This document shows positions 17,497-32,720 of a stretch of 36,285 bases of DNA, one piece after another. Origin of the DNA: Methyloglobulus sp. (GTDB taxonomy: Bacteria; Pseudomonadota; Gammaproteobacteria; Methylococcales; Methylomonadaceae); NCBI GenBank assembly GCA_009695535.1, contig SHZQ01000004.1, positions 1 through 36,285 on the forward strand, given 5' to 3'. The notes beneath the pieces are model-generated. The model did no database searches, had not been told where the DNA came from, and was given only the letters and a program-made list of their open reading frames with translations. How positions within the stretch are numbered: position 1 is the first letter of the stretch; the number at the start of each line of letters is the position of its first letter. The translations under genes were made by a program, and so were the position numbers.

Positions 17497-19326
17497 ATGT
17501 GTGGAATCGTCGGCGGCATTGCGCAAAGAAACGTAGTCCCTATATTACTGGAAGGACTTAAGCGACTCGAATATCGTGGTTATGATTCGGCAGGTTTAGC
17601 CGTTATCCATAACAACGAGATTTACCGGAAGCGTGAATTAGGCAAAGTCAAAGGTTTGGAGGCTTTGTTGCAAGCCGAGCCAATCTCAGGATATGTCGGC
17701 ATTGCACACACCCGCTGGGCGACGCATGGCGTACCCAGCACCCAAAATGCTCATCCCCATATCTGCCGGAACAAGGTGACGGTCGTTCATAACGGCATCA
17801 TCGAAAATCACGAACAACTAAGAAGTCAGCAACTTGAAGACGGCTATGAGTTCACCTCGCAAACCGATACCGAAGTTATCGTCCACCAAATATTTGATGC
17901 GCTTGAGACTTCAGATGGTTTTGTTGAAGCCGTCAAACTATCCTTAGCCAAACTGGAAGGTGCGTATGCCTTGGGCATTCTATGTACAAACTATCCTGAT
18001 ACCTTGATAGCTTGTAGAAAAGGTAGCCCTTTGGTGATTGGCGTTGGCATCGGCGAGCATTTCATTGCCTCGGATGTCGCGGCCTTATTGCCGGTCACAC
18101 AACGGTTTATTTTCCTGGAAGATGGCGATATTGCCGTTATTGGCATTAACGACCTGGTTATCTACGATAAGGATGACAATATCGTCACCCGCCCCATCAA
18201 AGAAAGCCAACTGACTGCCGAAGCCGCCGAAAAGGGCGAATATCGGCACTACATGCTCAAAGAAATCTACGAACAACCGTTTGCCATTTCACAAACCCTG
18301 GCAGGTCGCTTTATCAACAACCGCTTGCAGGAAAATGCCTTTGGGTTCAATGCCCCCGCTATATTCGATAGCACAAAAGCCATCTTGATCCTCGCTTGTG
18401 GTACCAGCTACCACGCCGGTTTGGTCGCCCGATATTGGCTGGAAGAGTTGGCTCGTGTCCCGTGCAGCATCGAAGTCGCTAGTGAATTCCGTTACCGAAA
18501 TCCGGTACTCGCGCCCGATACCTTGGTTGTCACCATTTCCCAATCGGGTGAAACCGCCGATACCCTGGCTTCTTTGCAGGAAGCCAAAAAACTCGGTGCC
18601 AAACACTCGCTCACCATCTGCAATGTGCCGGAAAGCTCGCTCATCAGGGAATCGGATCTGGTGATGATGACCCGTGCAGGCCCTGAAATAGGTGTCGCCT
18701 CAACCAAAGCCTTCACCACTCAACTCGTCACCCTTATGTTGCTGGTTATTGCAATGGGAAGGCGTTTCCAACTAGGTGAGGCGATGGAAAAAAAATTGAC
18801 TTCGGAACTGTTCACCTTGCCTGGAAAAATTGAAAAAGTATTGCGGCTAGACAATCAAATCAAAACCTTATCGGAGCAATTCGCGGATAAAGAACATGCC
18901 TTATTTCTCGGTAGAGGTACACATTATCCCATAGCGATGGAAGGCGCGTTAAAGCTCAAGGAAATCTCGTATATACATGCAGAAGCCTATCCCGCAGGCG
19001 AATTGAAACACGGCCCCTTGGCGCTTATTGATGCGGATATGCCCGTCATCACCGTCGCTCCCAACAACAGCTTACTGGAGAAGCTCAAGTCCAATATGCA
19101 AGAAGTTAGCGCACGAGGTGGCCGGTTGATAGTATTTATGGATGAAACCTTGTCTTCGCCCCCAGATAGCAATGTCCAAATCTTGAAAATTCCGCAAGTG
19201 GGCAACGAAATATCACCGATTGTTTACACCGTACCGTTGCAACTGTTGTCCTATCACGTTGCCGTTCTTAAAGGCACGGATGTAGATCAGCCCAGAAACC
19301 TAGCAAAATCGGTGACAGTGGAGTAG
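17497..19326 (+). CDS. glmS: Glutamine-fructose-6-phosphate aminotransferase (isomerizing)
   Basis: MCGIVGGIAQ N-terminal nucleophile Cys, two SIS domains, DQPRNLAKSVTVE C-terminus. Confidence 0.99.
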   Translation: MCGIVGGIAQRNVVPILLEGLKRLEYRGYDSAGLAVIHNNEIYRKRELGKVKGLEALLQAEPISGYVGIAHTRWATHGVPSTQNAHPHICRNKVTVVHNGIIENHEQLRSQQLEDGYEFTSQTDTEVIVHQIFDALETSDGFVEAVKLSLAKLEGAYALGILCTNYPDTLIACRKGSPLVIGVGIGEHFIASDVAALLPVTQRFIFLEDGDIAVIGINDLVIYDKDDNIVTRPIKESQLTAEAAEKGEYRHYMLKEIYEQPFAISQTLAGRFINNRLQENAFGFNAPAIFDSTKAILILACGTSYHAGLVARYWLEELARVPCSIEVASEFRYRNPVLAPDTLVVTISQSGETADTLASLQEAKKLGAKHSLTICNVPESSLIRESDLVMMTRAGPEIGVASTKAFTTQLVTLMLLVIAMGRRFQLGEAMEKKLTSELFTLPGKIEKVLRLDNQIKTLSEQFADKEHALFLGRGTHYPIAMEGALKLKEISYIHAEAYPAGELKHGPLALIDADMPVITVAPNNSLLEKLKSNMQEVSARGGRLIVFMDETLSSPPDSNVQILKIPQVGNEISPIVYTVPLQLLSYHVAVLKGTDVDQPRNLAKSVTVE

Positions 19327-19345
19327 TTTCCCTATACTTTTATCG

Positions 19346-19612
19346 ATGATGGATGTTGTATGTATTTTCAACGTCCTAATCACCACTAGGACACTTTCAC
19401 AGACAAAAATTTCTGAAGATAAAACTGATCGACATAAAATCATTTTTAGATTAAATAACGATGGATTATCTGATAAACAGATCAGTGAATATTTGAATGA
19501 TCATCAAATTAAAACTCCAAGAGACTTAGAGCATTATCCAAAGAAAAATCAAAGGACGACCAATCAACCTATGACTCCATCATTTCAAAATCTGAGCGCA
19601 ACCAATACTTAA
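19346..19612 (+). CDS. Short ORF with recombinase-like HTH segment (IIFRLNNDGLSDKQISEYLNDHQIKTPR)
   Basis: HTH-like segment; low GC; no clear full-length domain, possibly a remnant. Confidence 0.35.
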   Translation: MMDVVCIFNVLITTRTLSQTKISEDKTDRHKIIFRLNNDGLSDKQISEYLNDHQIKTPRDLEHYPKKNQRTTNQPMTPSFQNLSATNT

Positions 19613-19691
19613 CGTCCGTGAAATGTAGATTTCTTCTTTAACTTTGTTGAAGCCGTATCTGTAAAGAAACCCAGTACGTGACTCTCAGGGT

Positions 19692-21101
19692 TTACAGATT
19701 ACCGGTATCTTCTGGAGATATAGGGGCAGAGATAGCAGGGAGGTCGTCGTGTTTGGTTCTTTTGACTTCTTGAAGCAATTCGTCACGGTGTTTTTCCAGG
19801 ACTAATAGCTCAATATCGCGGCGGAGGTAGTTGTCGAGTTGTTGGGTGGCGGTGAAGCGCTTTTCGTGTTCTTGAATTTGCATTTCCAGCTCCATGTCTT
19901 TTAAACGTGTTTCGTGCAGCATTTTTTCCATTAGCAGGCGTTCGTGTACTATTTGTTCTTCATTCTGATTGATGTCGAGCAAGGCTAGTTTTGCGGTATT
20001 TTCCAGTTGTTTAAGGCGTTTTTCCTGGTCTATTTTCTCAATTCGTAAGCGTTCATGGATGCCGTTCCAAGCTTCTTGATTTTTCTCAAAGTCGGCAATT
20101 TCGGCGGCAAGCTGGAGCTCTTTGAGCTGTTGTTGATGAATAAGCCGTTCTTGCTGTAGCTGTTGTTCGATTTCAAGTTGTTTGGTTTGTATTTCTAATT
20201 GTGCTGTTGCAGCGGCCTCTTGCTCCATCCGTTTTAGATTTTGTTCGTGGTAAACCTGTTCTCTATGGACGCGCTCTTCGATGAGGAATTGCTCGTTCAA
20301 TTGCCGTTCCTGTTCTTCCAAACGACGTTTCAGGTTGAATGCGGCTTGCTCTTGTTCGATACGGTGCAAGGATTGTTCTTGATTGTACTGGTCGATCAAG
20401 CGTTGTTGGCGTTCCAGACGTTGCTGCTCAAGCATGAGTTCTTGCCGCAAGCGTTCCTTATTTTGATGCTCTTGGGTCTCAAAGTTTTTCCGCAAAATTT
20501 TCAGATAAATGTCGTCGTGGGCAAAGCGGCTGTCCAGCTTATTGGGATTTTTTATCTCAGAAAAAGTCGTGAGCATCTCACATAAGGCGCGACATTGGAC
20601 GTTTTGCAGGGTCAATGTTTCGTTGATGTGCATCTCAATACGACGCTCCACCGTAGCTAAACCTTGCTCCACCCAATCGCCATTTGCCAGTTTATGCAGC
20701 TCCTGATCGACCGCGTCTTTCACCAGCCCTTCACAGCGGGATTTGACATTTTGGTTGATGTTGGGAAGGGCTCCTAAGTTGGTTTGGGCATATTTAATAG
20801 TTGCTTGAAACCGGATGGTGAGCATCGCGTCAATGATGCAAAAATCCCCATATAGCTTGATTTGACTGTTAAATTGCCATTCATCAACGGGCAGATGATA
20901 GGTTTTGTGGTAGAAGCGCGAGATAAAATCAGGCGGTCGTTGGTAGGTTTTTTGGAAGGGTCCTAAGCTTGAAATGACGATTTGCCGACCGCCGTCAAAG
21001 CCTGGATCCCAGGTTTGGCTTAGGGCATCGCTTTCTGCGCTGATTTCCGCTAACCATTGCTCCAAAAGCGATTTTTCTGGTGCTGACTGTGCTTTATTCA
21101 T
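19692..21101 (-). CDS. SPFH-like N-terminal domain followed by a long coiled coil
   Basis: IDAMLTIRFQATIKYAQTNLGALPN...GLVKDAVDQELHKLANGDWVEQGLATVERRIEMHINETLTLQNVQCRALCEM, then ~250 aa of Q/E/R-rich coiled coil; SPFH assignment by eye. Confidence 0.6.
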   Translation of the reverse strand: MNKAQSAPEKSLLEQWLAEISAESDALSQTWDPGFDGGRQIVISSLGPFQKTYQRPPDFISRFYHKTYHLPVDEWQFNSQIKLYGDFCIIDAMLTIRFQATIKYAQTNLGALPNINQNVKSRCEGLVKDAVDQELHKLANGDWVEQGLATVERRIEMHINETLTLQNVQCRALCEMLTTFSEIKNPNKLDSRFAHDDIYLKILRKNFETQEHQNKERLRQELMLEQQRLERQQRLIDQYNQEQSLHRIEQEQAAFNLKRRLEEQERQLNEQFLIEERVHREQVYHEQNLKRMEQEAAATAQLEIQTKQLEIEQQLQQERLIHQQQLKELQLAAEIADFEKNQEAWNGIHERLRIEKIDQEKRLKQLENTAKLALLDINQNEEQIVHERLLMEKMLHETRLKDMELEMQIQEHEKRFTATQQLDNYLRRDIELLVLEKHRDELLQEVKRTKHDDLPAISAPISPEDTGNL

Positions 21102-27827: not shown

Positions 27828-27965
27828 GTGCCATCAAAATTCACCCCCTTAAAAGACCACGACACCCCTATCAAGGTGTTGTTTACCGGCTATCTAATTA
27901 CCGTTGGTATCGGCTACATGCTTATCATCGTAGAAAAAATTAGCACAAAATTAGACACTAAATGA
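27828..27965 (+). CDS. 45-aa single-TM small protein, GTG start, overlapping nadC
   Basis: MPSKFTPLKDHDTPIKVLFTGYLITVGIGYMLIIVEKISTKLDTK*; aaggaaag RBS upstream; stop overlaps the nadC start as ATGA; absent from the supplied ORF track. Confidence 0.6.
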   Translation: MPSKFTPLKDHDTPIKVLFTGYLITVGIGYMLIIVEKISTKLDTK

Positions 27966-29303: not shown

Positions 29304-29897
29304 TCAACCCATCCCATCAAACAATTGATGGTCTATTAAATCGCATAAACAATGGGTAATCAGTACGTGGACTTCGTGGGTACGGATTGCTGAACTGGAC
29401 GTAACCCGTAATTCCAAATCCCGTTCTGATAATAACGCTGAAATGCTGTCACTTCTGTCGCCAGTCAGTGCGATGATGGTGATGTCTTTGCTACGCGCCA
29501 CCGTAATGGCTTTGGCAATATTGTCGGAATGGTTGCCGTCGGTATAGGTCACTAATACATCGCCGTTTTGCCCTAACGAACGGATAGGTTTGGCGAATAC
29601 GTCCTCATAACTGTGGTCATTGGCGATGGCGGTCATCGCTGTCATGTCAGCCGTCAGTGCAATGGCAGGTAATGACGGGCGGTCGCGTTCAAACTGGTTG
29701 AGCAGGGCGGATGATAATAATTGGGCAGAAGCAGCGGAACGACCATTGCCGCAAGTTAAAATTTTCCGGTCATTCAATAACGCCGCCACCATGCGTTGTG
29801 AAGCCAATTCGATTAACTCGCACAGTTCACCTAAAGCATCCTGCTTGGTTTGGATGCTATCAGTAAATTGGTTGATGATACGGTGTTGTAGGCTCAT
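29304..29897 (-). CDS. SIS-domain phosphoheptose isomerase family (GmhA/DiaA)
   Basis: LTCGNGRSAASAQLLSSALLNQFERDRPSLPAIALTAD; located downstream of lpoA/yraN as diaA normally is. Confidence 0.9.
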   Translation of the reverse strand: MSLQHRIINQFTDSIQTKQDALGELCELIELASQRMVAALLNDRKILTCGNGRSAASAQLLSSALLNQFERDRPSLPAIALTADMTAMTAIANDHSYEDVFAKPIRSLGQNGDVLVTYTDGNHSDNIAKAITVARSKDITIIALTGDRSDSISALLSERDLELRVTSSSAIRTHEVHVLITHCLCDLIDHQLFDGMG

Positions 29898-29913: not shown

Positions 29914-30444
29914 TCAAAAAGCGTTCTTTATCCAGTTAATGTCGCCATTACCGGAGATAGCAGCCACATCAAAACGCAGTGGGTTATCGGCACGTAATGT
30001 CGATAAATAATGCTGCGTGGCGGCGATTATTTTGGCTTTGGCACTTTCTAGCAAATTGCCCGTCAAGGAATAAGAAAACGCCTGGGATTGGTAGGGTTTT
30101 ATCTTATCGTTAATGCCAAGTTGCCCAACTTCCGTGGTCGCCAGCTTGCTGATTGCCTGTTCTGCCTCACCAAAACTGAGCAGAATTTGGGCAGATAACA
30201 GATTAAATTGCGCTAATTGCGGGGGTGTTAATTCTTTTGGATGGATTAAATCAGCCTCTTGCTTGGCTGCATTGCCTTTACCGCCCTGAATTAATGTGCT
30301 GATATTTTGTAAACGGGTATTATTTTGCTCGACTGCCCAAGGTGATGCGGGTTCTTGGTACAATCCGTAGCTATCGGGCAGTTGTGCACAGCTCGATAAC
30401 AGCAGCACACAGAAAAATGGGATGATTGTGTAGTAGCGACTCAT
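29914..30444 (-). pseudogene. lpoA (N-terminal TPR part) - yraN (C-terminal part) chimeric ORF
   Basis: Lipobox LLLSSCAQLPD, TPR-like LTPPQLAQFNLLSAQILLSFGEAEQAI; C-terminus AKIIAATQHYLSTLRADNPLRFDVAAISGNGDINWIKNAF matches the YraN/UPF0102 C-terminal signature. Confidence 0.75.
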
Positions 30445-30491
30445 AGGTCTTACCTTGCTGTGAGACAAAAATAAATAAAAGCAGAGATTAA

Positions 30492-31355
30492 ATGTCAAAC
30501 CAATACGGCAAATTATACGTGGTTGCAACACCAATAGGTAATTTAGCAGACATCAGCTTCAGGGCGATAGACACTTTAAAACAAGTTGACCTGATTGCTG
30601 CCGAAGATACCCGACATGTCAAATTATTGCTAAACCATTACGGCATTAGCAATAAAGTCGTATCGTTCCATCAACATAACGAAGAAAAAGCAGCCGAAAC
30701 CCTATTGGAAAAATTGCGTGACGGACTCTCCATAGCCCTGGTTTCTGATGCCGGTACGCCGCTATTGAGTGACCCCGGTATGCCGCTGGTACGCCGGATT
30801 AAAGATGCGGGTTTAACCGTCGTGCCAATTCCGGGCGCATGCGCCTTGATTGCCGCCTTATCTGCGGCGGGTTTGCCAGTCACGCAATTCTCATTTGAAG
30901 GCTTTTTGCCGCGTACGTCTTCAGCTCGTAAAGCTTTTTTCACTGAAAGGCTAGCTACGCCGACGACTTGGGTATTCTACGAATCCTGCCATCGTATTCT
31001 GGCGGCATTACAGGATATGGCAAGTATTCTGCAAGCAGATCGCCAAATCGTCATCGCCAGGGAGTTGACCAAGCTGCACGAAACTATCGTCAAGACCACC
31101 CTGGCAAATGCGCTGGAGTTGGTCACGCAAGACGACAATATGCGGAAAGGCGAGTTTGTCGTGATTGTGGAAGGTGCAGACAAAGTTAACAAAAAAGAGG
31201 AAGAACTCAGCCCAGAGCAGGTCAATATACTCTGCATTTTAATGCGTGAATGTTCCACCAAAACCGCAGTAGATCTGGCTGTGCAAATTACCGGAGCTAG
31301 AAAAAAGCTGCTTTATCAAGCAGCATTGGATTTGGAGAAAGCAGCAGGCGCGTAG
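30492..31355 (+). CDS. rsmI: 16S rRNA (cytidine(1402)-2'-O)-methyltransferase
   Basis: LYVVATPIGNLADISFRAI, AEDTRH, SDAGTPLLSDPG, FYESCHR. Confidence 0.97.
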   Translation: MSNQYGKLYVVATPIGNLADISFRAIDTLKQVDLIAAEDTRHVKLLLNHYGISNKVVSFHQHNEEKAAETLLEKLRDGLSIALVSDAGTPLLSDPGMPLVRRIKDAGLTVVPIPGACALIAALSAAGLPVTQFSFEGFLPRTSSARKAFFTERLATPTTWVFYESCHRILAALQDMASILQADRQIVIARELTKLHETIVKTTLANALELVTQDDNMRKGEFVVIVEGADKVNKKEEELSPEQVNILCILMRECSTKTAVDLAVQITGARKKLLYQAALDLEKAAGA

Positions 31356-31451
31356 TTTTCTGGTATCAATGTTAATCACGATGAAGAAGTTAGAGGTCAT
31401 TTAGCATTGTTCTGTAATCTGTCTTTTCCAACATCCACCCCCCGCTTAAGG

Positions 31452-31457
31452 TATAAT
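31452..31457 (+). promoter_or_regulatory. -10 element of the rnpB promoter
   Basis: TATAAT ~10 nt upstream of the inferred RNase P RNA 5' end. Confidence 0.6.
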
Positions 31458-31467
31458 TCCCGCCAGA

Positions 31468-31819
31468 AAGAGTCGGCTGAGCAGTCGCTGTTTTATCGCA
31501 AGATAGAATGGAGGAAAGTCCGGGCTCCACTGGGCAGGGTGCCAGGTAACGCCTGGGAGGTGTAAACCTACGGAAAGTGCCACAGAAAATATACCGCCAT
31601 CGTCTTGTAAAAGACGAGGGTAAGGGTGAAAAGGTGCGGTAAGAGCGCACCGCGCAACTGGTAACAGGGGCGGCATGGTAAACCCCACCCGGAGCAAGAT
31701 CAAATAGAGGAATATACGCGTGGCCCGCGCGGTTCCTGGGTAGATTGCTTGAGCTGCAAGGTGACTTGCAGCCTAGATGAATGGCTGCTCTCGACAGAAC
31801 CCGGCTTATAGGCCGACTT
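31468..31819 (+). ncRNA. rnpB: RNase P RNA, class A
   Basis: gaggaaagtccgggctcc, ggtaagagcgcaccgcgc, agatgaatggctgctc, agaacccggcttat; P1 agtcggc/gccgact pairing, then T run. Confidence 0.97.
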
Positions 31820-31934
31820 TTTCTACTATTGTTTATCCGCAGTAAATAGCCCGTATGAAGTGCAATTTAATACGGGAAATCGAAGCTATGAAAGACTAGC
31901 TTCTGCAAGCTCAACCCTGAATTTTTACCGAATT

Positions 31935-32720
31935 TCAATCAAGTTGTCTCACCAAACGAAACCCTAAATCGTGCGTACGAGTTACCGACAATGCGCTAAA
32001 ACGCACAGCTGAACGCAGATTAGTGGCTTTGCCAATATAACTGCCTCCGCGATAGCTACGGTATTTTCCGGTTTCTGGTCCAGCAGGATTATTTGCTGGG
32101 CTGCTACCGTAATACCTGCCATCGTACCAATCTTGCACCCATTCCCAAACGTTACCGTGCATATCGTATAAGCCCCAGTCGTTAGGTTGTTTTTGTGCCA
32201 CTTCATGTGGGCTGCCTTTGTAACCTAAATTGCCAAACCAGGCGTAATCTGCCAGGGATTTTGGATTATCACCATAGCAATAATCATCATCGCTACCCGC
32301 TCTTGCTGCGTATTCCCACTCCGCTTCGGTCGGCAAACGGAAATACTTGCCGCCGTCTTTAGCATTCAGCTTTTCGATAAATTCTTGTGCATCATTCCAG
32401 CTTACCCTGTTAACTGGCTTGTCTTCGACTTTGTTTTTGCTCGGATTGTTACCCATAACATCTTCCCATTGTTTTTGTGTCACCTCAGTTTCGCCCATGT
32501 AAAAAGACTTTTCTATGCACACGCGATGACTAGGTGTTTCGCCCATGGTTCTATCGGTTGCCGGCTCGTCATTACCCATTTGAAAGCAGCCGGATTGAAT
32601 GAAGATAAGTTTAATGCCTGCGAAATTCTTACTGTCTACTGCGTTTGCTGAAGAAAAATAAAAAAGGCTCGCAAATAGAGTGATAAGAACGGGGCTTAGT
32701 GCTTTATGCTCAGTTTTCAT
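31935..32720 (-). CDS. Secreted formylglycine-generating-enzyme (SUMF1) family protein
   Basis: Signal peptide; FRLPTEAEWEYAARAG, GLYDMHGNVWEWVQDWYDG, YRGGSY, LGFRLVR. Confidence 0.92.
   Translation of the reverse strand: MKTEHKALSPVLITLFASLFYFSSANAVDSKNFAGIKLIFIQSGCFQMGNDEPATDRTMGETPSHRVCIEKSFYMGETEVTQKQWEDVMGNNPSKNKVEDKPVNRVSWNDAQEFIEKLNAKDGGKYFRLPTEAEWEYAARAGSDDDYCYGDNPKSLADYAWFGNLGYKGSPHEVAQKQPNDWGLYDMHGNVWEWVQDWYDGRYYGSSPANNPAGPETGKYRSYRGGSYIGKATNLRSAVRFSALSVTRTHDLGFRLVRQLD

Follow-up and report, generated by a model that had tools for sequence, protein, structure and literature searches.

How did a single open reading frame (ORF) come to begin as the lipoprotein LpoA and to end as YraN, and is either function still encoded? 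Such an ORF lies on contig C6 of G000, the draft genome of a Methylococcales methanotroph (1.59 Mb in 138 contigs, 87.7% complete, 0% contamination); this contig, 36,285 nucleotides long, is referred to below as the window. The LpoA protein of Escherichia coli has a TPR-like N-terminal domain (residues 28-256) and a C-terminal domain that acts as the stimulator of PBP1A (PMC4111904). For YraN, which has the motif ID-EVK, a PD-(D/E)XK nuclease fold is predicted (PMC1189080). We compared the locus with that of the closest relative, G003 (a sister genome with about 90% nucleotide identity; locus record CAMAVM010000014.1, stretch L033), which is itself a MAG, so that an assembly error of its own is possible, and with that of a further genus-mate, G002 (stretch L032). 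The genus comparison covered 7 other species besides G000, with one genome per species, and the family survey covered 237 genomes, 173 of them good.

An ORF with an LpoA-like start and a YraN-like end

An earlier note on this DNA had described the ORF as a lipoprotein with an LpoA-like start and a YraN/UPF0102-type C-terminus, and pairwise protein comparison confirmed both parts. Its ATG is at 30444 and is followed through to 176 codons and a stop; the lipoprotein signal with the lipobox reads, by inspection, MSRYYTIIPFFCVLLLSSC. Residues 1-140 are 63-78% identical to LpoA proteins of the genus (78% for G002 and 76% for G003), and residues 129-176 are 81% identical to the C-terminus of G003 YraN (E = 3.6e-20). 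The family profiles, the use of which had been proposed in the same note, matched both parts, albeit below the curated cut-offs in each case: the LppC profile (PF04348) aligned with the ORF over positions 22-125 of 563 with 20.9 bits (cut-off 28.8), and the UPF0102 profile (PF02021) aligned with the 41-aa tail with 13.5 bits (E = 0.096; cut-off 23.6). The tail scores weakly because just 21 profile positions are left in it, and its origin from YraN is settled by the pairwise matches.

In an alignment with the LpoA N-termini and YraN C-termini of Methylobacter-type genomes, the hand-over falls at SAKA-KII, where the LpoA counterpart is SAKxRI and the YraN counterpart is AKQSRIIAAT. The ID-EVK region of YraN, which in relatives reads GELDLIM...VIVEVRYRK, is within the deleted segment, the C-terminal LpoA domain is entirely absent from the fusion, and the retained LppC stretch amounts to about half of the N-terminal domain. 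Judged by the family cut-offs and by the functional domains, the predicted 176-aa protein is neither an LpoA nor a YraN. The structure model has confident helices at residues 35-127 and a single helix at residues 132-148 that runs through the join (block pLDDT 79-80), and it assigns low confidence to the YraN tail (pLDDT 49-60). The only matches to the fusion among PDB sequences were weak ones to yeast ribosomal L17 (the best reached a whole-sequence E of 0.002 through a doubled 9.6-bit match), and we dismissed them as chance helix similarity.

Table 1. Features of the lpoA-yraN locus and other gene-internal losses in G000. Coordinates are those of the window unless a stretch (L) is named.
Feature	Location	Strand	Remarks
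Remnant (45 aa) of a 298-aa haem-c-motif membrane protein	27828..27965	+	759 bp missing, in frame
SIS-domain (DiaA/GmhA-type) gene	29304..29897	-	Pfam SIS_2, E = 2.3e-20; order kept in relatives
Chimeric ORF, lpoA N-terminus and yraN C-terminus	29914..30444	-	176 aa; lipoprotein signal and lipobox LLSSC
yraN-derived part, last ~38 codons and stop	29914..30032	-	PD-(D/E)XK core absent
Deletion junction	30033..30038	-	6-nt microhomology AAGCCA (plus strand TGGCTT), common to lpoA and yraN in G003
lpoA-derived part, codons 1 to ~137	30039..30444	-	Signal peptide and approximately the first half of the N-terminal TPR-like domain
rsmI, divergent	30492..31355	+	Pfam TP_methylase and RsmI_C; order kept in relatives
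RNase P RNA (class A)	31469-31824	+	Full-length match
gnd-zwf chimera, 75 aa (contig C30)	L114:8847-9071		4530-bp loss, 4-nt ACCC, in frame
Membrane protein of 847 aa in G003, about 143 aa here (contig C30)	L114:17145-17603		In frame
GST-like N-terminus joined to sensor kinase/Hpt C-terminus (contig C72)	L106:13781-13786		4784-bp loss, out of frame

Missing segment and sequence of the junction

Both neighbours named in the earlier note, the divergent rsmI and the DiaA/GmhA-type gene, were recovered as Pfam matches, and the comparison with close relatives that it had recommended revealed separate lpoA and yraN genes in the same gene order. G003 carries lpoA, yraN, the SIS-domain gene and rsmI in the arrangement of the window, and a separate yraN together with a recognisable lpoA is present in 7/7 genus-mates, with the lpoA of G003 being frameshifted and that of G006 cut by a contig edge. 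UPF0102 proteins were found in 223 of the 237 family genomes, including 170 of the 173 good ones and all 7 genus-mates, and since yraN is near-universal in the family and present in all genus-mates, the intact gene is the ancestral state. Relative to G003, 1657 bp are missing at the join; they consist of the LpoA C-terminus and the YraN N-terminus, that is, of ordinary gene sequence rather than of a mobile element inserted in the other genomes. The comparison with relatives thus supports the proposal that a frame-keeping deletion took the activator domain of LpoA and the nuclease-like core of YraN. The join had been placed near 30039, which is about right, although the 6-nt ambiguity at the junction means that it cannot be assigned to one exact base.

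A microhomology of at least 6 nt is expected by chance with a probability of 0.002 (0.2% of random lpoA/yraN joins). Within 150 bp of both ends, no shared words longer than 10 nt were found in G003 or G002, and at the join itself none longer than 6 nt was found in G003. In the absence of a long repeat, a k-mer assembly graph would have had nothing to collapse on at this position.

Identity to G003 falls from ~94% to ~80% exactly at the join. On one side, the yraN tail is 95% identical and the diaA-type gene has a dS of 0.31; on the other, the lpoA part is 80% identical, and rsmI and the FGE gene have dS values of 0.75 and 0.76. The raised divergence persists through rsmI and the FGE-sulfatase gene (window 30039-32720 compared with L033; dS ~0.75, against ~0.3 beside). 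Elsewhere, away from deletions, single genes of G000 and G003 have dS values anywhere between 0.18 and 0.9, and we therefore rejected the drop at the join as proof of a chimeric contig. No donor lineage nearer to the rsmI-lpoA segment was found, with G002 being no closer.

LpoA in the genus and the family

A profile search of the 87.7% complete G000 assembly yielded no second LppC or UPF0102 match, which, as far as a genome of this completeness can tell, indicates a loss of LpoA, one of the two outcomes offered in the earlier note, and not its relocation; it is possible but unlikely that the part of the genome absent from the assembly holds another lpoA or yraN. Among the 237 family genomes, 140 have LpoA, whole genera are without it, and G000 is the sole genome in which the best LpoA match lies below the cut-off. 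G000 has kept genes for PBP1A and for a PBP1B-like protein, so that the loss of LpoA would leave PBP1A without its known activator, a point against such a loss.

In G003, an 8-bp tandem duplication, CTGGGCAA (L033:5566-5590), has shifted the reading frame of lpoA, independently of the deletion in the window; the duplication site is possibly slippage-prone. Two sister genomes with two different breaks in lpoA make a loss of constraint on this gene plausible, with the reservation that the G003 break comes from a MAG and may be an error. Given the independent break in G003 and the absence of LpoA from several whole genera, lpoA is apparently dispensable in the family. In the LpoA-less genera, rsmI and yraN are still in one neighbourhood and adjoin each other in most of the genomes inspected. 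The long YraN frames of G033 and G140 were considered as natural LpoA-YraN fusions and rejected, since both frames run on into the strand complementary to rsmI, and neither genome has LpoA. Genera without LpoA include g13, g14, g22, g23, g24 and g27. The sampled genomes of the first two (G019 and G020) also lack the PBP1A-specific PCB_OB domain, and G022 lacks LpoA and YraN and has kept PCB_OB; co-loss of LpoA and PBP1A in parts of the family is possible.

Other large deletions in the same genome

A census of deletions covered 533 kb of G000 against 1.70 Mb of G003, of which 354 kb aligned, and considered clean losses of 700 bp or more that start in one gene and end in the same or another gene (Table 1). 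The haem-c-motif protein (298-301 aa) of which the window holds a remnant is intact in G003 (L033:9378-10274, minus strand) and G002 (L032:6296-7201, minus strand), and other genus members, too, have extra sequence at this site. No full-length gnd was found in the G000 assembly, and an intact gnd was also not found in two other genus members; one further zwf is retained in G000 (contig C111). The gnd and zwf losses look like real gene losses.

Including lpoA-yraN, 4/5 clean gene-internal losses are in frame. The probability of this by chance is 11/243 = 0.045 at one third each and rises to 0.10 if an ambiguous sixth case, on contig C106, is scored as frame-breaking; the excess was noticed post hoc and is only suggestive. 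In the 354 kb aligned between G000 and G003, no losses larger than 733 bp were found in the opposite direction. The large deletions of G000 cluster on few contigs. Losses of 331 and 333 bp on C30, both with 4-nt overlaps, do not enter this tally, since at least one of their ends does not clearly fall inside a gene; their interpretation as mobile elements inserted in G003 was rejected, as the two segments bear no relation to each other and each occurs just once in the G003 sequence examined. At window positions 19326-19692, ~6.7 kb of G003 are missing and ~365 unrelated bases are present instead.

Origin and fate of the fusion

Taken together, we consider it probable that one microhomology deletion gave rise to a deletion-born lpoA-yraN fusion, most likely a decaying non-functional stub. 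A single deletion of ~1.66 kb at the 6-nt direct repeat AAGCCA, by slipped-strand mispairing or another form of RecA-independent end-joining, would have deleted the terminal ~77% of lpoA along with the initial two thirds or so of yraN. The frame would have been kept at the join by chance, leaving readable an outer-membrane-lipoprotein-like stub of 176 aa with the signal, the lipobox, about half of the TPR-like domain of LpoA and the tail of YraN. As the PBP1A-stimulating domain of LpoA and the nuclease-like core of YraN are gone, the LpoA function and the YraN function are both most likely lost. It would belong to a group of several deletions in a genome that is shrinking. We infer its occurrence in the organism rather than in the assembly, the lack of function of the stub and the route of recombination.

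If the fusion were instead an assembly or library artefact, originating from a chimeric molecule or a misassembly, the organism would have lpoA and yraN intact. The draft state of the genome, in 138 contigs, and the clustering of the deletions on few contigs are compatible with such an origin, and the step in identity to G003 at the join could hint at a chimeric molecule. However, the repeat at the join, at most 6 nt, is too short for the collapse of a k-mer graph, the window is free of N, and lpoA is broken independently in the sister genome. Moreover, artefacts should ignore the reading frame, and the post hoc in-frame excess among comparable large deletions therefore counts against them. 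An artefact, including the assembly collapse that the earlier note had allowed for, accordingly appears unlikely. Homology-facilitated illegitimate recombination would have led to the same stub and differs from plain deletion in the route alone: incoming DNA of a related species, from rsmI to the 5′ end of lpoA, would have recombined through homology on the rsmI side and through the 6-nt microhomology on the yraN side, with the deletion of 1.66 kb of the recipient. The identity to G003 changes exactly at the join, and the one-sided microhomology is the footprint expected of this route. Yet the step may be a coincidence, no closer donor of the rsmI-lpoA segment came to light, and plain deletion needs one step fewer. 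Because dS elsewhere varies so widely between genes, we prefer plain deletion and regard the recombination route as rather unlikely.

The product could also be a retained, functional outer-membrane lipoprotein, either a neofunctionalised stub or a partial LpoA scaffold. The start codon and the lipobox are intact, the frame is open across the join, which is located inside one continuous predicted helix, and the lpoA part has a dN/dS of 0.14-0.19 against relatives, with no sign of decay yet and a dN to G002 equal to that of G003. These low ratios, however, mostly reflect the time before the deletion and are uninformative on the time since. Furthermore, the PBP1A-stimulating domain (PMC4111904) and the catalytic motif of YraN (PMC1189080) have been deleted, the YraN tail is modelled with low confidence, and lpoA is broken in G003 as well. 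Retention of a function is thus very unlikely. A broader scenario, in which frame-preserving, microhomology-guided deletions would generate deletion-born fusions often enough for a set of them (lpoA-yraN, gnd-zwf and others) to be expressed, with the LpoA-YraN stub being made and kept in the outer membrane, seems quite improbable. On the preferred reading, that of a plain deletion leaving a non-functional stub, the lpoA-yraN case alone changes little, as the most likely outcome is that both functions were lost. It would nevertheless represent a loss of LpoA caught in the act, in a family with whole LpoA-less genera, and offers another angle on whether the reading frame is kept in deletion-born fusions more often than expected by chance.

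Comparison with known systems

The fusion has features in common with both parent families. It shares with LpoA, the outer-membrane activator of PBP1A, the signal peptide, the lipobox, the first helices of the TPR-like domain and the place beside rsmI; unlike LpoA, it is without the PBP1A-stimulating C-terminal domain and the remainder of the N-terminal domain, and it scores below the family cut-off. With YraN, it shares the last ~40 residues and the position before a DiaA-type gene, whereas the ID-EVK core is missing and the tail, preceded by a lipoprotein signal, would be exported.

Kaul et al. (2026 preprint, PMC12803068) describe genes, termed deletion-born fusions, in which a deletion has linked the first part of one ORF to the last part of a second; the unfused state is ancestral. 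Examples are yjcO-lysU in the LTEE and acrR-glcD in M. bovis, and a beneficial function is yet to be shown (PMC12803068). As in those fusions, the lpoA-yraN ORF combines the beginning of one frame with the terminus of a second, it derives from two intact ancestral genes, catalytic parts have been lost, and the intervening DNA is no mobile element. By comparison with them, each fragment here is read in its native frame, the parent genes lie directly next to each other, and the join has a 6-nt microhomology; unlike them, lpoA-yraN is known here from the sequence of one uncultured draft genome alone. Judged by its sequence, the predicted lpoA-yraN ORF is a deletion-born fusion in this sense (PMC12803068), and it adds a well-resolved case from an uncultured free-living bacterium, in which two conserved neighbour genes would have become one new reading frame through a single microhomology deletion. 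As such, it is a fresh and clean instance of a process that was described only recently, and not a new kind of system.
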